From: Jatrophihabitans endophyticus
GTDB lineage: Bacteria > Actinomycetota > Actinomycetes > Mycobacteriales > Jatrophihabitantaceae
Direction: 5' to 3'
Assembly (NCBI RefSeq): GCF_900129455.1
Contig: NZ_FQVU01000002.1
Span: forward strand, 434,001 to 498,000
Length of the DNA stretch: 64,000 nt
The notes under the pieces were generated by a model. That model ran no database searches, was not told the origin of the DNA, and saw nothing but the letters and a program-made list of their open reading frames with translations. The translations under genes were made by a program, and so were the position numbers. Below are positions 52,670 through 63,801 of the stretch, one piece after another (position 1 is the first letter of the stretch; the number at the start of each line of letters is the position of its first letter).

Positions 52670-54640
52670 TCACCGGCCGACGACGACGGCGAAGCCCCGC
52701 GCGGGGATGCGGACGGTCGTGCCGGCTGTCGTCCGCACCGTCCGACCGGACGCGTCGTACACGCTCACCCGGCCCGTCCCCGTGGCCACGTGGCACGGCC
52801 GCACCGCGTTGCACCGCTCCACGCGGACCGTCCCGGTGCGGAGCTCGCTGACCACCGGGGTCACCAGGAGCGCGTCCACGCGGCCGGCGCCACCGGTGAA
52901 CCGGGCCGTGAGCGTGGCCGCGCCGGCACCGACGGTGCCGACCGGCAGCGGGACCAGCCGACCGGGGGCGGGCGAGTCGCCCTGCGGCGACCCGCCGCCG
53001 GTCGCGAAGCGGCCCACCCGCGTCCCGCCGGCGGTCACGGTCGCCCGCGCGCCCGGGCCCGGGGTGCGGTCCACGACCGCCTCCACGAAGCGGGGTCCAC
53101 TCCCCGCCGGCAACGTCCACCGCGCCGTCGCGGCGCCGGAGACCGCGAGCAGCTGGCCGCTCCAGGACGACTCGGCCGTGCCCGCCGGTGCGTCGGTCGG
53201 GGCCGCGGCGCCGGTGACGGCAGCATCCTCCGCCTCGACCACGGTGGTGCCGTCGCGCGTGGCCGCCGCTCCCGAGGCCCGGGCCAGCCGGGCGACGTCC
53301 GGTGCGGCGTCGAGCGCGAGCATCGACAGCAGGCCGTGGATCGTGGACTCGGCGCCGGAGTTGCGGTTCACGGTGCCGTCGGCGGCGATGCCGTCGTACG
53401 TCACGCCGGTGCCCGGGTCGTACGTCGGCGAGGCGGCGGCGTTCTGCCCGAAGTACCAGCCGGCCCAGACGCCGGCGAGCTGCCGCAGGCCGCGCGAGCC
53501 GGACACCGTCGCGGCGGCCAGCGACGACTGCACGCGGGAGTCGACGCCGTAGGCGATGGTGCTGCGGTCGACCGGTGCCGGGAGCAGCCCGTTGACCGCG
53601 CCGTAGCGGGTCAGCAGCGCGGGCGAGAACGCCGCGGCGTCGGCCACCGCGACGCGGGCCAGGGCCCGTCGGTCGAGCGCGGCCGACGCGCGGGCGAGGC
53701 CGGCGGGGGCGAGACCACCCCAGGCGTGCCAGCTCGACCGCGACAGCGCCGAGGGCAGGATCGCGCCGTACGGCCAGCGCTGCGAGGGTGCGGTGCCGAG
53801 CTGAGCGATGCCGTCGCTCAGCCGCCGCAGCGCGCGCACGCCGTCACGTCCGCCGGCCCGCACGTAGGCGGCCAGGCCGAGCACGGCCTCGCCGGAGGCG
53901 TCGGCGCCGTCGGCGATCAACCACGCAGGCGTGCGGACGCCGTCGACCCGGTGATAGGTCCCGTAGCGCGACAGCGAATCCCGCTCGAGGGCGTCGAGCG
54001 CGAGCCCGAGCCGCGCCCGCAGGAAGCGCGCGAAAGCCGGGTCCTGGTGCACGAAGGCCCGATAGCCCTCGCCGAGGGCCCAGATCGTGCGGGCGAGCCA
54101 GTAGGAGTTCGCCGAGTCCGACGGGTCGGGCTCCTCGCGGGGCAGGGCACTCGCGTTGAGCGTGCCGTCGGGCTGCATCCACAGCACGACGTTGCCGGCG
54201 TTCGGGCCCGTGGCGGTCTGCAGGTAGGTCAGTCCGCGCAGCAGGTCGAAGGCGTACTCGCGGCTGTGCGCGTCGCCGAACTGGCGCCAGTGCCGCAGGT
54301 ACACGACCGCCGCCCGGGCGATGTCGTCGGAGTCGTACGCGCCCTGGTCGTAGGTGTCCGTCTCGGCGTGGTGCGGCCCGCCGCCGACGCGCTCGTAGCT
54401 GCCGTCGTCACGGTGCTCGGCGTACACCCAGAGCTCGCGCAGCGGCCGGGCCGGCGCGTAGGTGCTGTGGCCGGCCTGCGCCGGCGGCGTCACGGTCTGG
54501 GTGAGGAAGTCCAGGTGGGCGAGGTTGGTCAGCGGCTGCTGCGACGCCGACGGGGCCGACGACGCCGACGGGGCCGCGGTCGCCGGCACGGCCACCGCGA
54601 GCGACAGCACCGAGGTCGCGACCGCGAGCAGCGCCCTCAC
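52670..54640 (-). CDS. Secreted helical-barrel protein with C-terminal CBM6/35-like module
   Basis: A 656-residue exported protein and the last gene of the GH130 operon. The signal peptide is RALLAVATSVLSLAVAVPATAAP. The next 400 residues are rich in Trp/Tyr and paired helices (DIARAAVVYLRHWRQFG, SYWLARTIWALGEGYRAFV, GAESTIHGLLSMLAL), as in alpha-toroid glycan-active enzymes. The end is a beta-module opening VVEAEDAAVTGA, like carbohydrate-binding modules of families 6/35. I cannot place the catalytic residues or family. The GTG overlaps the GH130 stop (54637-54640). Confidence 0.72.
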   Translation of the reverse strand: MRALLAVATSVLSLAVAVPATAAPSASSAPSASQQPLTNLAHLDFLTQTVTPPAQAGHSTYAPARPLRELWVYAEHRDDGSYERVGGGPHHAETDTYDQGAYDSDDIARAAVVYLRHWRQFGDAHSREYAFDLLRGLTYLQTATGPNAGNVVLWMQPDGTLNASALPREEPDPSDSANSYWLARTIWALGEGYRAFVHQDPAFARFLRARLGLALDALERDSLSRYGTYHRVDGVRTPAWLIADGADASGEAVLGLAAYVRAGGRDGVRALRRLSDGIAQLGTAPSQRWPYGAILPSALSRSSWHAWGGLAPAGLARASAALDRRALARVAVADAAAFSPALLTRYGAVNGLLPAPVDRSTIAYGVDSRVQSSLAAATVSGSRGLRQLAGVWAGWYFGQNAAASPTYDPGTGVTYDGIAADGTVNRNSGAESTIHGLLSMLALDAAPDVARLARASGAAATRDGTTVVEAEDAAVTGAAAPTDAPAGTAESSWSGQLLAVSGAATARWTLPAGSGPRFVEAVVDRTPGPGARATVTAGGTRVGRFATGGGSPQGDSPAPGRLVPLPVGTVGAGAATLTARFTGGAGRVDALLVTPVVSELRTGTVRVERCNAVRPCHVATGTGRVSVYDASGRTVRTTAGTTVRIPARGFAVVVGR

Positions 54641-55725
54641 GACGCGGTCCCGAACTCGAGGCGCGCGACGCCGATCGCGGAGTCGGCCATGCCGTAGAAG
54701 ACGTAGTGCGTGCCGTCGATCTCCTCGATCGCGGTGGGGAAGACGACGTTGGGCACCGTGCCCGACGTCTCCTGTCCGGTCTCGGGCTCGAGCAGCGGCT
54801 CGGCCGTCCGCGCCAGCACCCGGGTGGGGTCGTCGCGGTCGAGCAGCATCGCGCCGGCGCAGTAGCGGACGCGCTGCTGCTGGTCCCAGCCCTCGACGAG
54901 CTCGCCGGTGACGCCGTGGTGGATGACCAGCCAGCCGTCGTCCACCAGCAGCGGCGGTGGGCCGGCGCCGATCTTCAACGCCTCGTAGTCGTACTCGGGC
55001 ATCGCCACGAGCAGGTGGTGCGACAGCCGGGTCAGCGCGCCCGGGTCGGTGCCGACGTCCTCGACGGCGGCGTAGGAGATCCAGATGCCGGGACGGTCGT
55101 CGCCCACACCGGCCGGCAGGTAGGTCCCCTCTCCCGGCCGGATCCACGACAGGTCCCACATCGGCCGGTGCAGCATCGCGAACGACGGACGCCCGTCCGG
55201 GCCGGTGACCGGCTCGGGGAAGAAGACGCAGTCCTTGTTCGGGAACAGGTTGAGGTCGGTGTCGAGGTCGGCCTGGTAGCCGAAGTGCAGCGGGCCGTGC
55301 CGCGTCCACGTCCGCAGGTCGCGCGAGGACGCGAGGGCGGGCTTGGGACCGAGCGGGCCGTAGGCCACGTAGGTCATCACGTGGACGCCGAGCGCGGGGA
55401 TCCACGTCGTGCGGGGATCCTCGACGCCGCCGTGGTCGTGGGCGCGTTCCCACCCCGCGTCCGGGGCGAGCACGACGCCCGCGCGGCGCACGCCGGTCGG
55501 CCTGCCGTCGGCGACCTGCACCTCGGCGAGGCCGACGCGGGACACGTTGCCGGCGGCCACGAGCCGCGGCAGCAACCACAACCGGCCGTCGGCGTCGCGA
55601 CCGCTCGCCGGGTTGAGGACGCCCTCGACCTCGGCCGGCTCGTCCGGGGCCGGGGTCATCACGGTCCCGAGGCGGGTGAGCCGCAGGGCGTCGAGGGTGG
55701 TGGCAGTGGTGCGGTGGGCGGTCAC
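54637..55725 (-). CDS. GH130-family glycoside phosphorylase/hydrolase
   Basis: A 362-residue five-bladed beta-propeller of family GH130, whose members act on beta-mannosides, mostly by phosphorolysis. The family-defining GGVEDPRTTWI is present, as are LNLFPNKDCVFFPEP and TSGTVPNVVFPTAIEE. FYGMADSAIGVA is near the end. No signal peptide, so it is cytoplasmic and acts on imported glycans. The GTG at 55725 has AAAGG upstream and lies two bases after the permease. Whether it uses phosphate cannot be decided here. Confidence 0.9.
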   Translation of the reverse strand: MTAHRTTATTLDALRLTRLGTVMTPAPDEPAEVEGVLNPASGRDADGRLWLLPRLVAAGNVSRVGLAEVQVADGRPTGVRRAGVVLAPDAGWERAHDHGGVEDPRTTWIPALGVHVMTYVAYGPLGPKPALASSRDLRTWTRHGPLHFGYQADLDTDLNLFPNKDCVFFPEPVTGPDGRPSFAMLHRPMWDLSWIRPGEGTYLPAGVGDDRPGIWISYAAVEDVGTDPGALTRLSHHLLVAMPEYDYEALKIGAGPPPLLVDDGWLVIHHGVTGELVEGWDQQQRVRYCAGAMLLDRDDPTRVLARTAEPLLEPETGQETSGTVPNVVFPTAIEEIDGTHYVFYGMADSAIGVARLEFGTAS

Positions 55726-55727
55726 GA

Positions 55728-56636
55728 TCAGCCTTTCACTCCGGAACCGATGCCGGTGTTGACGAACCAGCGTTGGAACACGACGAACAGGACGAGCACG
55801 GGCACGGCGAGGACGCACGCGCCGGCGAGGATGGTGCCGAACGGGTTGTCCGCGGCGGCCGACGTGGCGGTGATGTAGTTCGACAGCGACACCGCGAGCG
55901 GCTGCATCGTCTGCTTCTTGGTGACGAGGAAGGGCCACAGGAACTCGTTCCACGGCCCGATGAAGGTCAGCAGCGCGCCGGTGAGCAGGGCGGGACGCAC
56001 CATCGGGATCGCGATGCTCCACAGGATCCGCCACTCGGTCGCGCCATCGATGCGGGCGGCCTCGAACAGCTCCTCGGGCAGCTGCAGGAAGTACTGACGG
56101 AACACGAAGACCGCGACCGAGTTGATGGCGTAGGGGGCGATCATGCCGAGGTAGCTGTCCGAGAGCCCGTAGTCGCGGGCGACGAGCACGTACATGGGGA
56201 TGATGAGCAGCTGGAACGGGATCGCCTGCACCAGCAGCAGCAGCGCGAAGAGCACTCCCCGGCCGCGGAAGCGCAGCCGGGCGAGGGCGTAGCCCGCCAT
56301 CGTGCCGAACACCAGCGTGCAGACGAGCACCCCGGCGGTGAAGATCAGCGAGTTGAGCAGCGACCGGCCCAGGGCGATGGCCCGGTTGATGTCGGTGTAG
56401 TTGGCGAACGTGAAGCCCTGCGCCCCCGGGATCAGTCCCTTGAGGGAGCCGTCGGTGTGATCGGCGAACGACCCGACGAGCATGTAGTAGAAGGGGAAGA
56501 CGAACACGAGCGCGCCGGCGCCGAGCAGCAGGTAGCGCCACCACTGCGGACGGTGCGCGGGCTCGTGGTGCTCGGCCGTGGGGCGGTTCGGTGCGGCGTC
56601 GGCGTTGTCGGCGACGTCCTCGACGGTGAGTGTCAT
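55728..56636 (-). CDS. Sugar ABC transporter permease, MalG type (GH130 locus)
   Basis: A 302-residue permease with six membrane helices, starting LLLGAGALVFVFPFYYMLVG. The EAA loop is LFEAARIDGATEWRILW. The final GIGSGVKG is the standard ending. A 30-residue Asp/Ala-rich N-terminus is cytoplasmic. It lies ten bases downstream of its MalF-type partner and two bases before the GH130 gene. Confidence 0.94.
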   Translation of the reverse strand: MTLTVEDVADNADAAPNRPTAEHHEPAHRPQWWRYLLLGAGALVFVFPFYYMLVGSFADHTDGSLKGLIPGAQGFTFANYTDINRAIALGRSLLNSLIFTAGVLVCTLVFGTMAGYALARLRFRGRGVLFALLLLVQAIPFQLLIIPMYVLVARDYGLSDSYLGMIAPYAINSVAVFVFRQYFLQLPEELFEAARIDGATEWRILWSIAIPMVRPALLTGALLTFIGPWNEFLWPFLVTKKQTMQPLAVSLSNYITATSAAADNPFGTILAGACVLAVPVLVLFVVFQRWFVNTGIGSGVKG

Positions 56637-56646
56637 CGGTTCCTCC

Positions 56647-57552
56647 TCAGCCCCGGTCCAGCAGTCGTTGCACCCCGGCGATCGCGAGCACGCCGAGCAC
56701 GAGGACGACGCCGATCGCGGCGGCGACGTCCGGGCGGTTCTGCTCGATGCCGAGCTGGTACATCAGCAGCACCGGTGACGCGGACGCGCCGTCGGGCCCA
56801 CCGCCGCCGGTGAGCAGGTAGGGCTCGGTGAACAGGTTCGCGCCGGTGACGATCGCCAGCAGCGTGACCAGCCCGGTCGTGTGCCGGACGCCCGGCACGG
56901 TGACGACGAGGAACTGCTTGACCGCGGACGCGCCGTCCATCGACGCCGCCTCGTACAGCTCCTTGGGCACGTTCTGCAGTGCGGCGAGATAGAGCAGCAC
57001 GTAGAAGCCGAGCTGCTTCCACGTCACGAACCCCGCGACCGACGGCATCGCCCACGTGCCGTTGACCAGCCAGGACGGCCTGGGCGCGGCCGAGCCGAGC
57101 ACGTTGTTGACGAGGCCGCTGCTGTTGAACAGGAACAGCCAGATGCCGGCGATGGCGACGCTGGCCGTCAGGTAGGGCGCGTAGTACGCGACCCGCAGGA
57201 ACGTCCGGCCGCGCAGCTTGGCGTTCAGCGCGGTCGCGAGTACCAGGGACAGCACCACCGTGAGCGGGACGTTGATCACCAGGAAGATCGCGATGTTCAC
57301 GAACGCCTGCTGCACCGCGTCGTCGCCGAGGGCGTCGCGGAAGTTCTGCAGACCGACGAAGGGGTGCGGCACGTCCACGCCGGGCGCGGTGAACTTGTAG
57401 CGGTGGAAGGCCATGTACACCGCGAGGCCCACCGGATAGGCGAACAGGGCCAGCAGGAACAGGGCGTACGGCGCGACGAACAGGTAGCCGACCGGGTTGC
57501 GACCGGCGTTCCGGCGCGGGGCACGGCGACGCGTGGTGAGCTGGGCGGTCAC
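56647..57552 (-). CDS. Sugar ABC transporter permease, MalF type (GH130 locus)
   Basis: A 301-residue permease. The basic N-terminus (TTRRRAPRRNAGRN) is followed by PVGYLFVAPYALFLLALFAY and five further helices. The EAA loop reads LYEAASMDGASAVKQF. The GTG at 57552 overlaps the binding-protein stop as GTGA. No ATPase gene is in the operon, so a shared multitask ATPase is presumed, as for the polyol importer. Confidence 0.94.
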   Translation of the reverse strand: MTAQLTTRRRAPRRNAGRNPVGYLFVAPYALFLLALFAYPVGLAVYMAFHRYKFTAPGVDVPHPFVGLQNFRDALGDDAVQQAFVNIAIFLVINVPLTVVLSLVLATALNAKLRGRTFLRVAYYAPYLTASVAIAGIWLFLFNSSGLVNNVLGSAAPRPSWLVNGTWAMPSVAGFVTWKQLGFYVLLYLAALQNVPKELYEAASMDGASAVKQFLVVTVPGVRHTTGLVTLLAIVTGANLFTEPYLLTGGGGPDGASASPVLLMYQLGIEQNRPDVAAAIGVVLVLGVLAIAGVQRLLDRG

Positions 57553-58856
57553 TTCTTCACCACCAGCCCGTCGATGTCGTGGGCGGTGTCGGTGAGCGAG
57601 CGGGGTACCGCCACCTTCCCGAAGATGACGCTGCGCGACCACCCGTCGCGGAACCGCTGCCAGATCTGCACCGAGTTCGGGACGTTGGGCACCTCGATCA
57701 CCCCTGGCCCCAGGGCGGCGAACGAGCGGTACGCCGGGTTCTTCGCGAAGTAGGCCGCGTAGCGGGTGGTCACGTCCGGACGCAGCGGGATCTGGCCGGT
57801 GACGTCGAGGAAGGTGCCGTCCTGCTGCGAGCTGGTCGAGTACTTCAGGAAGTCCCAGGCCGTGGCCCGGTTCTTGCAGGAGGCGTACATCGCCACGTTC
57901 TTCGCGTCGCTGAAGGTGTGGGCGCTCGGTGTGCCACTGCGGGTGGGTACGCGGACGACGCCCCAGTCGACCTTGCCCTTGTACGACCCGATGGCCCACG
58001 GCCCGACCGTCGCCATGGCGGAGACGCCATCGGCGAACGGGTCACCGCTGTACGTCTCGTCACCGGCGAGCCGTTGGGAGTACAGCGCGCGCCAGAACTC
58101 GGCCACCCCGCGCCCGGCGGCGTCGTCGAAGGTCGCCTTGTCGTCCTTCAGCAGCTGGGTGCCGCCGCTCTGGGCGGCGTACATGGGATAGAAGTCGTAC
58201 CAGGGCTGGAAGAAGTCGTTGGACGCGTTGGGGTAGATCGCGTAGCGGGCCGCCCGTGACGACACGATTTTGCGCGCTGTTGCGAGAAAGCCCGAGTAGC
58301 TCGCGAGGTCCGGGTGGTCGGGGTCGAGACCGGCCTTGGCGAAGATCTTCTTGTTGTAGAAGATCATGACAGGGTTCGACTTCCACGGCAGCTGGTAGTA
58401 GCGGCCGTCCGGGCTGCGGTACTGCTGCGCCTGCGCGCCGCTGCGGCTCTCGATGTACTGCCGGGCGCCCGGGAACTGGTCGAGCGGGACCAGCCCGCCG
58501 ATCGCCTGGAACTCGGGAACCGACGCCGGCGAGGTGTTGTAGATCAGGCACGGCTCGGTGCCGGCGATGATGCCGGCCTGGATGACCGCCTCGGACGACT
58601 TGCCGGTGGGCACCTGCTGCCCGGTGACGTGCTGCCCGGGATGCGTGCGGTTCCAGGACGCGACCACCTGCTTGGCCCAGGCGACCTCCTGCTCGTTGTT
58701 CGAGTACCAGACCTCGATCGGTCCGCGCGACGTGCGCGCCCGATCGGCGTTCACCGGGTCGACGATGCTGCAGGCGGCGAGTGCGAGCAGCGCGACGGCC
58801 AGCGCGGCGGCCGTGCGCACCCTCGACAGGGACTTTGCGGTGCGGCGGTGCATCAC
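57549..58856 (-). CDS. Sugar-binding lipoprotein of the GH130 locus
   Basis: A 435-residue solute-binding protein. The lipobox LAAC follows the hydrophobic signal (AAALAVALLALAACS). Family features are IEVWYSNNEQEVAWAKQVVA, given as IEVWYSNNEQEVAWAK, then KSNPVMIFYNKKIFAKAGLD and the late AWDFLKYSTSSQQDGTFL. The GTG/ATG pair (58856/58853) has GGAAGG upstream and overlaps the LacI gene's end by four bases. A short AT-richer patch with rare codons lies at 58264-58290. It binds the glycan for the two permeases that follow. Confidence 0.93.
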   Translation of the reverse strand: MMHRRTAKSLSRVRTAAALAVALLALAACSIVDPVNADRARTSRGPIEVWYSNNEQEVAWAKQVVASWNRTHPGQHVTGQQVPTGKSSEAVIQAGIIAGTEPCLIYNTSPASVPEFQAIGGLVPLDQFPGARQYIESRSGAQAQQYRSPDGRYYQLPWKSNPVMIFYNKKIFAKAGLDPDHPDLASYSGFLATARKIVSSRAARYAIYPNASNDFFQPWYDFYPMYAAQSGGTQLLKDDKATFDDAAGRGVAEFWRALYSQRLAGDETYSGDPFADGVSAMATVGPWAIGSYKGKVDWGVVRVPTRSGTPSAHTFSDAKNVAMYASCKNRATAWDFLKYSTSSQQDGTFLDVTGQIPLRPDVTTRYAAYFAKNPAYRSFAALGPGVIEVPNVPNSVQIWQRFRDGWSRSVIFGKVAVPRSLTDTAHDIDGLVVKK

Positions 58857-59932
58857 GACGTTCCCTTCCTAGGACGTGCGGGTGTCGGTGGGGCGACGGA
58901 GGCGCGGGCGATCATCCGCGCCGGCGGCAGGTCGACGTCGCGGGCCGTGGCGTCGGCGACCGCGGCGAGCAGGGCATGTGCGGCAGCGGTGCCCCACCCG
59001 GCGACGTCGGTGCGGACGGTCGTGAGCGGCGGGTTCGCGTAGTGCGCGAGCTCGACGTCGTCGAACCCGGTGATCGACAGGTCGGTGGGGACGGCGAGTC
59101 CCCGGCGTTGCGCGACGGCGAGCCCGGCCATGGCCATCACGTCGTTGGCGTAGGTGATCGCGGTCGGCGGGACGCGCCGCGAGAGCAGGCGGTCGGTCGC
59201 TCCCGCGCCCTCGCCCGCGCTGAAGTCGGTGTGGACGAGCAGGTCGGCGGCGAGCCCCGCCGCGGTGAGTGTGGCCTCCCAGGCCTCGCGACGCGAGCGG
59301 ACGTGCAGGAACTCGGCCGGCCCGGTGACGTGCGCGATCCGGTGGTGACCGGCGTCGACGAGGGTCCGCACGACCTCGCGCATCCCGGCGCTGTCGTCCA
59401 CCGACACCGCACCGACCCTGCCGGCGCTCGACGTGCGGTCGGGCCGGCCGAGCGTCACGGCCGGCAGGCCCAGCTCGGCCATCAGCGCGGGGCGGGGATC
59501 GTGGACCCGCAGGTCGGTCAGGAAGACGCCGTCGACGCGCTTCTCGGCGGCGAAACGCCGGTACGTCTCGATCTCGGCGTCGTGGTCGGGCACGACGGTG
59601 AAGGTGAGCGACTGCTCGCTCGGCTGCAGCGCGGCGGTGACCCCGGCGACGAACGCCGGGAAGAACGGGTCGGCGCCGACGGTCGTGGTCGGCCGCGCGA
59701 CGACCAGGCCCAGCGTGAACGAGGACTGGTGCGAGAGCGCGCGGGCGCGGTGGTTCGGGCGCCACCCCAGCTCCGCGGCGGCGTCGAGCACCCGGCGACG
59801 GGTCGCGTCGGCCACGCCCGGGCGGTTGTTCAGCGCGAACGAGACGGCGCCGGGCGATACCCCGGCCTCGCGCGCGACGTCGGCGATCGTGACCCGCCGC
59901 GCGGCCCCGCCGTGCTCGCCCCGTCCCGCCAT
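58853..59932 (-). CDS. LacI-family repressor of the GH130 operon
   Basis: A 359-residue repressor. The helix-turn-helix and hinge read TIADVAREAGVSPGAVSFAL and RALSHQSSFTLGLVV. The periplasmic-binding-like sensor domain follows (DPFFPAFVAGVTAAL, ITYANDVMAMAGLAVAQRRG, ITGFDDVELAHYANPPLTT). The ATG at 59932 is set by a promoter whose -10 ends seven bases before it, so the mRNA is leaderless. It is the first gene of the six-gene operon and overlaps the binding-protein start, so it represses its own operon. Confidence 0.93.
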   Translation of the reverse strand: MAGRGEHGGAARRVTIADVAREAGVSPGAVSFALNNRPGVADATRRRVLDAAAELGWRPNHRARALSHQSSFTLGLVVARPTTTVGADPFFPAFVAGVTAALQPSEQSLTFTVVPDHDAEIETYRRFAAEKRVDGVFLTDLRVHDPRPALMAELGLPAVTLGRPDRTSSAGRVGAVSVDDSAGMREVVRTLVDAGHHRIAHVTGPAEFLHVRSRREAWEATLTAAGLAADLLVHTDFSAGEGAGATDRLLSRRVPPTAITYANDVMAMAGLAVAQRRGLAVPTDLSITGFDDVELAHYANPPLTTVRTDVAGWGTAAAHALLAAVADATARDVDLPPARMIARASVAPPTPARPRKGTS

Positions 59933-59938
59933 CCGACC

Positions 59939-59968
59939 ACTAAAGCGGTTTAGTTCCCCGGCCGTCAA
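59939..59968 (-). promoter_or_regulatory. Promoter and LacI operator of the GH130 operon
   Basis: On the minus strand TTGACG (59963-59968) and TTTAGT (59939-59944) are 18 bases apart, a near-consensus promoter. The palindrome ACTAAAGCGGTTTAGT (59939-59954), with a central CG as in LacI-family operators, covers the -10. The start codon is six bases downstream. Confidence 0.8.
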
Positions 59969-61029: not shown

Positions 61030-62217
61030 ATGATAGTGACCGCGGCCTCGGCCCGGCTCGACCCGCCACTGCGGAGCCTGCTGGATCCCGACGCCCTGCT
61101 CGACCCGCACGACCGGTACCGGTCCTGGCGGGCGAGCGCGCCGGTCGCGTGGGACGAGGGCACGAGCAGCTGGGTCGTCACGAGTTACGCGGTGTGCCGT
61201 GACGTGCTGCAGGACGTCACGACGTTCGGCTCGGACCGGCGCCGCGCGGGGCTGCCCCTTCCCCCGTCGATGCTCAGCATCCAGACCCTGGACCCGCCCG
61301 AGCACACCGAGATCCGGCATCAGGTCCTCGCCGCCCTGCGCCGCTACGACCTGCGCACGGCCGACACGGCGATCGCGGCCGCGGTCGACGACGTCCTCGA
61401 CCGCGCCGTCGCCGGCACGACCGTCGACTTCGTCCGCGACGTCGCGCAACCGCTGGCGCTGCAAGTGATCGCGGACGTTCTCGGCGTCACGCCGCCGGAC
61501 GCCGCGTGGTTCGTCCCGGTGTCGACGGCGATCGTCGACTCGATGGACGCCGGGCTCGCCCCCGAGCGCCTCGCCGCCGGCGTCGCCGCACGCGAGGAGC
61601 TCGCCGCCCTCGCCACGACGTGGCTCGACCACCCTGACCGCCCCGGCCTGGTGGCCGCGTTCGCGGCCGGACTCGACGAGTGGGACACCGACCCCGTCGT
61701 CGTCGCGAACACGGTGCGGGCGTTCGCCCACGCCGGCTTCGAGTCCGTCGGCCGGTTGCTCGCCGGCGCTGCGACGGTCCTGCTCGCCGAGCACCGGCTC
61801 CCGTCGGCCGTGCCGTTGTCGGAACGCGCGGCGGCCGAGCTGGTCCGCTACGTCAGCCCGGTGCAGGGCGACGCGCGGGTCTGCGTGCGGGACACCGAGC
61901 TCGCCGGCGTCCCCATCCGCACCGGCGAGGTGGTCACCCTGCTGCTCGCCGCGGCGAACCACGACCCGGCCGCGTTCCCCGAGCCCGACCGCCTCGTCCT
62001 GGACCGGGAGCCGAACCACCACCTCGGTTTCGGGCGCGGCGCGCACGCCTGCGTCGGGGCTGCCCTCGGCCTGCGGGTGCTGCGGGCCGCGCTCGACGGG
62101 TTCGGGCGTCGTTTCCCGGCGGCCACGCTCGTCGAGTCGCCCGCCTGGGCCGCGAACGCGACCCTGCGCGGCCCCGCCGCGGTGCTCGTCTCACCCACCG
62201 GACGCGAGAGGAGGTGA
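61030..62217 (+). CDS. Cytochrome P450, putative peptide cross-linking enzyme
   Basis: A 395-residue soluble bacterial P450. The heme-thiolate loop is HLGFGRGAHACVGAALG with Cys341 as ligand. The ExxR motif is ELVRY in AAAELVRYVSPVQGDAR. The I-helix motif is AHAGFESVG, with Ser in place of the usual Thr after Glu, as happens in P450s that couple aromatic rings rather than insert oxygen (suggestive only). No ferredoxin or reductase gene is nearby. The stop is five bases before a five-codon gene MTYVH with its own ribosome site, so the P450 likely cyclises that peptide. Without this context it would be an orphan of unknown substrate. Confidence 0.9.
   Translation: MIVTAASARLDPPLRSLLDPDALLDPHDRYRSWRASAPVAWDEGTSSWVVTSYAVCRDVLQDVTTFGSDRRRAGLPLPPSMLSIQTLDPPEHTEIRHQVLAALRRYDLRTADTAIAAAVDDVLDRAVAGTTVDFVRDVAQPLALQVIADVLGVTPPDAAWFVPVSTAIVDSMDAGLAPERLAAGVAAREELAALATTWLDHPDRPGLVAAFAAGLDEWDTDPVVVANTVRAFAHAGFESVGRLLAGAATVLLAEHRLPSAVPLSERAAAELVRYVSPVQGDARVCVRDTELAGVPIRTGEVVTLLLAAANHDPAAFPEPDRLVLDREPNHHLGFGRGAHACVGAALGLRVLRAALDGFGRRFPAATLVESPAWAANATLRGPAAVLVSPTGRERR
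62209..62214 (+). promoter_or_regulatory. Ribosome-binding site of the five-codon gene
   Basis: AGGAGG, a full Shine-Dalgarno core, ends eight bases before the ATG at 62223 and overlaps the last P450 codons. It is too close to the GTG at 62214 to serve that codon, so it decides the ATG as start. Confidence 0.75.
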
Positions 62218-62222
62218 GCGTC

Positions 62223-62240
62223 ATGACGTACGTCCACTGA
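62223..62240 (+). CDS. Pentapeptide RiPP precursor MTYVH (biarylitide type)
   Basis: An 18-base gene: ATG ACG TAC GTC CAC TGA, encoding Met-Thr-Tyr-Val-His. It starts five bases after the P450 stop and has AGGAGG at ideal spacing, and a hairpin terminator follows about 40 bases later. Biarylitide precursors are pentapeptides of the pattern M-x-Y-x-H whose Tyr and His rings are joined by the neighbouring P450, leaving a cyclic tripeptide (here Tyr-Val-His). Described precursors that I know of mostly have Arg at position 2 and precede the P450. This one has Thr and Val and follows it. The assignment rests on pattern and position. Confidence 0.75.
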   Translation: MTYVH

Positions 62241-62281
62241 GCACGGTCCAAGGTCCGCAGCGAACCTACGGGCCGACAGGA

Positions 62282-62313
62282 CCCGCCGGGCCGACACCGC
62301 TCGGGCCGGCGGG
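62282..62313. terminator. Hairpin after the pentapeptide gene
   Basis: CCCGCCGG (62282-62289) pairs with CCGGCGGG (62306-62313), then a G-G mismatch and a CC/GG pair lie inside. It could end the P450-pentapeptide transcript before the aminopeptidase gene. Confidence 0.6.
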
Positions 62314-62370
62314 CCCCCGACCGTCGCCGCCGACATCCCGCGTCCCCTCCGATCCGAAACGGGCTCCGCC

Positions 62371-63801
62371 ATGACGTTCGCCCTGCACCCGCACCGCAGG
62401 ACCGCCGGCCGCGTCGCCGCGCTGGCCCTGTCGGTCCTGACGCTGGCCGCGGGCACGCCGGCCCACGCCGCCAGTCGCCCGACGCTCGATCGCTTCGGCG
62501 CCCTGGTCGCGTCGCGGACGAGCACGGCCGCTGCGGTGGCCGATCTCGCCGTGTTGCAGCGGATCGCCCAGCGCGACCACGGCAACCGGGCGACGGGCAC
62601 GCGGGGGTACCGCGACTCGCAGGACTTCGCCGTGCGCCGGTTGCGGGCCGCCGGCTACCGCGTGCAGCTGCAGCCCGTGCCGTACACCAAGTTCCACGTG
62701 AGCGCCGAGCGCACGCGGCTGCAGCTCGGGGCCCGCACCGTACGACTCACCTCCCTGCTCATGGACGAGTCGCCCGCACGGCGGGTCACGAACGCGCCGC
62801 TCGTGGCCCCCGCCGACGGCCCGACGGCCGGCTGCCAGGCCGCCGACTTCGCCGGGCAGGACGTCAGCGGCGCCGTCGTGCTCGAGCCGCGCGCGTCGTG
62901 CGGCTACGCCGCCCAGCTCGCGGTCGCGGCGGGCCTCGGTGCCACGGCGGTGCTGCTCTCCTATCCCACGCCGCGGCCGCAGAACGTCCTGCGGCTGCAC
63001 TGGTTCGACAGCACGCCGCCGGCGATCCCGCTCGCCTCCATCCGGCACACCGACGAGACGGCGTTGCGGGCGGCGCTCGCCCGCGGACCGATCCGCGTCG
63101 ACCTCGACTGGCGCGGTCACGACGTCAGCGGCGTCACGCACACCGTGATCGCCGAGACGCGCGGCGGCTCGGCGCATCACGTGGTCATGTTCGGCGGCCA
63201 CCTCGACAGCGTCGACGAGGGGCCGGGCATCAACGACAACGGGTCGGCCGTGGCGGCGGTGCTCGAGACGGCGGTGGCGCTCGCGCCGTTCCAGGACCGG
63301 CTGCGCAACCGGGTGCGCTTCGTCCTCTGGGGCGCCGAGGAGCTCGTCGACGTCGGGTCGGACCACTACGTGGCGCAGCTCGACGCGCAGCAGCGGGCCG
63401 ACATCGACGTCTACGTCAACGCCGAGATGATCGCGTCGGACAACTTCGTCCGCTTCGTCATGGCGGGCGCGGGCATCGTGTCAGCCCCGTTCGAGGCCTA
63501 CTACGCCGCCCGCGACCTGCCGATCGAGCGGGTCGGCTCGGACGCCGTCGGCTCGGACCAGGAGCCGTTCTTCGCGGCCGGCATCCCGATCGCCGGTCTG
63601 TTCGACGGCGCGCTCGGCGTCAAGACGCCGGCACAGGCCGCCGTCTACGGCGGCCGGGCAGGGCAGCTCTACGCCTCGTGCTACCACCAGGCCTGCGACA
63701 CGCTGGCCGCGATCGACCGGCGCGCGCTCGAGCAGAGCACCCACGGCCTCGCCTACGCCGTCGCCACCCTCGCGGGGCAGGCGGCTCCCGGCGCGCGCTG
63801 A
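62371..63801 (+). CDS. Secreted M28-family zinc aminopeptidase with PA domain
   Basis: A 476-residue exported metallopeptidase. The signal peptide (RVAALALSVLTLAAGTPAHA) ends near residue 34. A PA-type insert (about 135-200, including CGYAAQLAVAAGLGATAVLL) precedes the M28 core. Zinc and catalytic motifs are MFGGHLDSVDEGPGINDNGS, WGAEELVDVGSDHY, NAEMI and the late YHQACDTL, all present. It removes N-terminal residues from peptides outside the cell. Its place after the pentapeptide suggests, without proof, that it trims Met-Thr. No good ribosome site precedes the ATG. Confidence 0.9.
   Translation: MTFALHPHRRTAGRVAALALSVLTLAAGTPAHAASRPTLDRFGALVASRTSTAAAVADLAVLQRIAQRDHGNRATGTRGYRDSQDFAVRRLRAAGYRVQLQPVPYTKFHVSAERTRLQLGARTVRLTSLLMDESPARRVTNAPLVAPADGPTAGCQAADFAGQDVSGAVVLEPRASCGYAAQLAVAAGLGATAVLLSYPTPRPQNVLRLHWFDSTPPAIPLASIRHTDETALRAALARGPIRVDLDWRGHDVSGVTHTVIAETRGGSAHHVVMFGGHLDSVDEGPGINDNGSAVAAVLETAVALAPFQDRLRNRVRFVLWGAEELVDVGSDHYVAQLDAQQRADIDVYVNAEMIASDNFVRFVMAGAGIVSAPFEAYYAARDLPIERVGSDAVGSDQEPFFAAGIPIAGLFDGALGVKTPAQAAVYGGRAGQLYASCYHQACDTLAAIDRRALEQSTHGLAYAVATLAGQAAPGAR

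Follow-up and report, generated by a model that had tools for sequence, protein, structure and literature searches.

Known biarylitide systems

To our knowledge, no family is encoded by smaller genes than the biarylitides. A 2026 survey counts 277 biarylitide clusters and describes both AchB, which makes a C-N bond on MKYWH, and SavB, an enzyme 68.8% like Planomonospora BytO, with a cross-linked YVH of the C-C type isolated from its precursor MRYVH (PMC13417212). In the structures of P450Blt and RufO, residue 69 (Phe) adjoins Arg-2 of the bound peptide, and RufO carries an aspartate at position 169 (PMC12186263). His234 has been associated with C-N bonding, with Val or Leu at that position in C-C enzymes (PMC12951456).

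The P450 gene and the pentapeptide gene behind it

The stretch of DNA analysed here (the window, 64 kb of Jatrophihabitans endophyticus) contains at 61030..62217 on the + strand a bytO-type cytochrome P450 gene of 395 aa, whose product is predicted to be a Tyr-His cross-linking enzyme on the basis of PDB phmmer searches, phylogeny and pocket alignment. The heme ligand Cys341 lies within HLGFGRGAHACVG, and the ExxR motif (E270-x-x-R273) and the I-helix sequence AGFES are kept. The best PDB match was P450Blt (8u2m, E 1.8e-82), followed by RufO-type chains at about 1e-75 and further related chains down to 2e-61, with the next P450 at only 6e-37. Identity with P450Blt is about 44%, the sequence match spanning residues 4-388. 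Both the PDB matches and the trees described below thus place the enzyme in the BytO/P450Blt/RufO family. Neither a Shine-Dalgarno (SD) sequence nor a sigma-70-like promoter was found 5' of the P450 start.

The P450 gene ends in GAG AGG AGG TGA (stop TGA, 62215-62217), and its final codons (E-R-R-stop) contain the Shine-Dalgarno AGGAGG (62209..62214, + strand) of an 18-bp bytA-type precursor gene, MTYVH, at 62223..62240 (+). Recognized from its sequence and its relatives, this gene reads ATG-ACG-TAC-GTC-CAC-TGA and comprises a leader, Met-Thr, and a core, Tyr-Val-His. The ATG lies 8 nt from AGGAGG and 5 nt from the P450 stop. The initial annotation had read all of these elements from the sequence (Cys341, the stop at 62217, the ribosome site and the MTYVH frame), and each is present as described. 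A longer precursor starting from the GTG at 62214 (MSVMTYVH) was discarded, as the Shine-Dalgarno sequence overlaps that codon. MTYVH is an 18-bp M-x-aromatic-x-aromatic gene with a ribosome site, tightly linked to its P450, as are biarylitide precursors.

Short frames do arise by chance, and MTYVH could in principle be such an 18-bp frame behind an ordinary hydroxylase. However, it is the sole five-codon M-x-aromatic-x-aromatic-stop frame on both strands of the window, the strict motif being expected 0.00 times in dinucleotide shuffles. It is also the sole ATG-started M-x-Y-x-H-stop in the 4.48-Mb genome, in which the other match to the M-x-Y-x-H pattern closes with TGG, no stop codon; a reversed control pattern gave 3 matches in the genome scan. 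Given a single such frame per genome, a chance occurrence within 100 nt of the P450 end on the same strand would be of the order of 1e-5 to 1e-4. Together with the phylogeny, the precursors found beside related P450s and their absence from the control loci described below, this makes a chance frame extremely improbable.

Related loci and placement of the precursor

Relatives were sought in about 1,990 genome look-ups, covering nested samples of the genus, family, order, class and phylum and also the genus of G745, the family of G310 and a plasmid collection; the phage collection and Rfam gave no match. In all, 53 loci with a related P450 came from the genome samples and the plasmid collection, and 48 of these P450 genes are adjoined by an SD-preceded 18-bp M-x-[Y/H]-x-[H/Y]-stop gene. 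By comparison, an SD-preceded aromatic-x-aromatic pentapeptide frame was found at 0 of 87 control loci, which were ordinary P450s from the short-peptide-pattern contig scan (25-34% identity over full-length matches); the sole motif match among them, MRHLF, lacks a Shine-Dalgarno sequence. The expectation that homologues would keep such a frame and ribosome site beside the P450 was therefore borne out. Two known cases were recovered blind: an MRYLH gene preceding the P450Blt-like enzyme of L091, and another preceding a RufO orthologue (L104; PDB RufO, E 2.7e-245). In the latter, one of the five loci with no precursor nearby, the distance from MRYLH to the P450 is 1.3 kb, in agreement with the published position of the rufomycin precursor upstream of rufNO (PMC12186263). 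For L094, L100 and L109 (wider neighbourhoods L138, L139 and L140), no five-codon precursor was recognized over several kilobases on the P450 strand; on the opposite strand of L094, about 1 kb away, there is an MSYDH frame.

Maximum-likelihood trees, in which Planomonospora BytO and AchB themselves are absent, separate the biarylitide-type P450s from ordinary P450s with support of 100/100, and the window P450 falls with P450Blt, RufO and their relatives and not with ordinary hydroxylases. The suggestion of a minimal biarylitide-type cluster is supported by this phylogeny and by the conserved precursor beside the relatives' P450s. The enzyme belongs to a 22-member clade (support 99/97), within which it stands on a long branch (0.94) and groups with six MRHxH enzymes (96/92). 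In all 22 members the precursor lies on the downstream side, from -4 to +100 nt from the P450 stop, so that the window precursor shares its side with those of 21 relatives. The clade precursors are 13 MKYWH, seven MRHxH, one MRYLH and MTYVH. In the rest of the family the precursor mostly precedes the P450 by about 50-200 nt; at L098 and L114 it is also downstream, and these two form a separate small group in the tree. Since every clade member has its precursor after the P450, the downstream position is a trait of the clade and not, as had first been supposed, a novelty of this locus. Most simply, it would be ancestral in the clade.

Several features of the relatives may be recorded here. In 12 of the 13 MKYWH loci (L115, L116, L118-L121 and L123-L128) the P450 stop codon and the precursor start codon share bases in the sequence ATGA. 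The downstream MRHxH (His-x-His) precursors occur at L111, L117, L122, L129, L130, L132 and L160, and L117 has two copies. At positions 231/234/238/239, six of these seven P450s have a distinct pocket, VQQT. L160 keeps VHES and stands elsewhere in the clade, which suggests that His-x-His substrates arose twice.

Within the bacterial family, the P450 was not found in the 23 other genomes at the thresholds used, and MTYVH was seen in no other genome; the family comprises only 24 genomes, many of them incomplete. The main texts of the biarylitide papers searched contain no MTYVH, which may nevertheless stand in the supplementary tables of the 277-cluster survey.

Active-site pocket, leader recognition and bond type

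Published P450Blt residues (PMC10929621, PMC12186263, PMC12951456) were mapped onto the window P450 by alignment, giving Arg70, Gln85, Val169, Ala231, His234, Glu238 and Ser239 as its pocket. Gln84, Val169, Ala231, His234, Glu238 and Ser239 of P450Blt all have identical counterparts, and both the catalytic motifs (Cys341, ExxR) and the peptide pocket are intact.

The exception is position 69 of P450Blt, occupied by Arg70 in the window enzyme. Among the related loci, Arg at this position occurs only with a non-basic residue 2 in the pentapeptide (7/7 loci, with Thr, Ser, Asn or Phe, the window included), whereas a basic residue 2 is accompanied by Trp, Phe or Leu in 33/33. Pro is found only with Asp or Ser as residue 2. 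Because five loci have Phe or Trp together with a non-basic residue 2, the pairing is a tendency, and the counts come from related sequences and are not independent. It suggests a simple rule that would tie one P450 residue to leader residue 2. In the window the Arg70/Thr2 pair appears within a clade whose other members combine Trp with Lys or Arg, which favours MTYVH as the genuine partner of the P450. Thr2 had been put forward as a distinguishing feature, which overstates the case, since an uncharged residue 2 is known in MNYLH, MSYDH and others. Val4 does not set the locus apart either, given MRYVH and its isolated YVH (PMC13417212).

RufO-type enzymes are close relatives and act on a pentapeptide of this kind (PMC12186263), and the window P450 might accordingly nitrate the tyrosine of MTYVH, supplying nitrotyrosine, instead of cross-linking it. 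Yet at position 169 it has Val, as cross-linkers do, where RufO and the RufO-like loci L104 and L134 have Asp, and at position 239 it has Ser, against Val in both L104 and L134. It also lies outside the RufO branch of the tree, and no nitric oxide synthase gene was present among the genes inspected around it, the neighbours being a DNA methyltransferase and an M28 peptidase. Nitration is therefore very improbable and was discarded on Val169 and gene context.

As to the cross-link itself, the intact His234/Glu238/Ser239 pocket of P450Blt predicts that a C-N Tyr-His bond is most likely, in which case the product would be isomeric with the known C-C YVH. A C-C bond would be the alternative, as SavB gives C-C cross-linked YVH from MRYVH (PMC13417212) and the long branch of the window P450 allows for pocket changes. 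It is unlikely, though, because the window enzyme keeps His234 where C-C enzymes have Val or Leu (PMC12951456), and because AchB makes a C-N bond on MKYWH, the motif common in the sister lineage (PMC13417212). With a branch of this length (0.83-0.94), the exact cross-link cannot be read with certainty.

Flanking genes

A GC-rich hairpin at 62279..62315 (+) begins 39 nt past the MTYVH stop and may mark the 3' end of the transcript. It folds with -30.3 kcal/mol (z -3.05 against local shuffles), while a 130-nt fold of the region was not stronger than shuffles. A hairpin terminator about 40 bases on had been reported; the hairpin is there, but no T-run follows it and no intrinsic terminator was called, so that the terminator label is unproven.

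The next gene downstream (62371..63801, +) encodes an M28 peptidase that has a PA domain and, at its N-terminus, a signal-like sequence (Pfam PF04389, E 1.5e-37), the sole peptidase recognized nearby. No counterpart was found in the 23 other family genomes (E 1e-60; many incomplete) or in the neighbourhoods of the relatives L138-L143, and it was discarded as a conserved leader peptidase. It is probably a bystander, a candidate for Met-Thr trimming by position only; as the relatives lack it, such a role is speculation.

The P450 is preceded by a DNA methyltransferase gene, whose conservation within the genus is 74-75%, and by a gene for a LacI-type regulator. A comparison aimed at a clean empty site did not bring out an insertion boundary, G001 having a different gene after the methyltransferase and the G002 contig ending soon after it. 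No redox partner, dedicated protease or tailoring gene is evident at the locus, and the flanking genes inspected include none for tailoring, transport or nitric oxide synthesis. Known biarylitide clusters are also without redox partners (PMC12951456).

Further away, 54637-59968 of the window holds an ordinary-looking sugar uptake locus with ABC permeases, a solute-binding protein and a LacI regulator, its genes other than the regulator being named by eye. Just to the right of the window lies a Wadjet-like defence operon (L144 9811-17805; genome C2 ~499.8-507.8 kb). Its JetD3 (E 4e-98), JetC3 (E 0) and JetA3 (E 1e-168) genes share a strand; an unmatched gene occupies the JetB position between JetC and JetA, and a Fic/DOC gene adjoins the operon.

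Proposed biosynthesis and significance

Taken together, it is very probable that the locus is a minimal two-gene biarylitide (RiPP) cluster in which MTYVH is cross-linked by the product of the adjoining P450 gene. The two genes would most likely be carried on one message, and translation of the 18-bp gene would be coupled to that of the P450, because its ribosome site sits in the last P450 codons; MKYWH relatives have the same Shine-Dalgarno layout. The P450 would take the whole pentapeptide and join the Tyr3 ring to the His5 imidazole by one bond, most likely of the C-N type, after which a protease with no obvious gene would cut off Met-Thr and release cyclic Tyr-Val-His, for which [M+H]+ is calculated as 416.193 (458.203 when N-acetylated). 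The latter value agrees with the m/z 458 given for the known YVH product in the survey. Any biological role of the peptide would likewise be putative.

The exact MTYVH precursor and the deep P450 lineage with Arg70 look new, and no other sampled genome of the bacterial family has the cluster. We consider the chances about even that this is a deep precursor-downstream lineage in which Arg70 replaces the aromatic residue that grips a basic leader residue, the uncharged Thr leader is therefore recognized differently and the product is a C-N cyclic Tyr-Val-His not yet isolated. Such a product would test whether His234 alone sets C-N versus C-C bonding on one YVH core. The precursor-after-P450 layout, as a heritable clade trait, is useful for genome mining. 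Overall, the locus appears to be a genuine but not revolutionary addition to the biarylitide peptide family.

Comparison with known systems

The P450Blt/MRYLH system of Micromonospora sp. MW-13 (PDB 8U2M) has the Tyr-x-His pentapeptide and the pocket residues noted above in common with the window. It differs in Arg2, Leu4 and Phe69, as against Thr2, Val4 and Arg70, and in the precursor, which lies upstream at the P450Blt-like gene L091 and downstream in the window. The RufO/rufomycin MRYLH system likewise pairs a related P450 with a pentapeptide, but it is distinguished by Asp169, nitration and a precursor located ahead of the rufNO operon, which includes the NO synthase.

In the MRYVH/SavB cluster of Saccharothrix variisporea, as described in PMC13417212, the YVH core is the same and the product has been isolated; unlike the window, it has an Arg2 leader, a C-C cross-link and the tailoring genes savT and savH. 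The MRHxH clusters (all but L160) are the nearest branch and share the downstream precursor, and they differ in His3 and the pocket VQQT, against Tyr3 and AHES in the window.

The MKYWH clusters (AchB of Actinomadura hibisca and 13 loci of the genus Streptomyces) belong to the same precursor-after-P450 clade and resemble the window in the HAES pocket, the translational coupling layout and the Tyr-x-His motif, at 44-47% identity. Unlike the window, they have Lys2, Trp4, Trp at position 69 and, in 12 of 13, the ATGA overlap. In both MKYWH neighbourhoods inspected (L141 and L142), a second, divergently transcribed P450 about 30% identical to the window P450 directly adjoins the first, whereas none is adjacent in the window.
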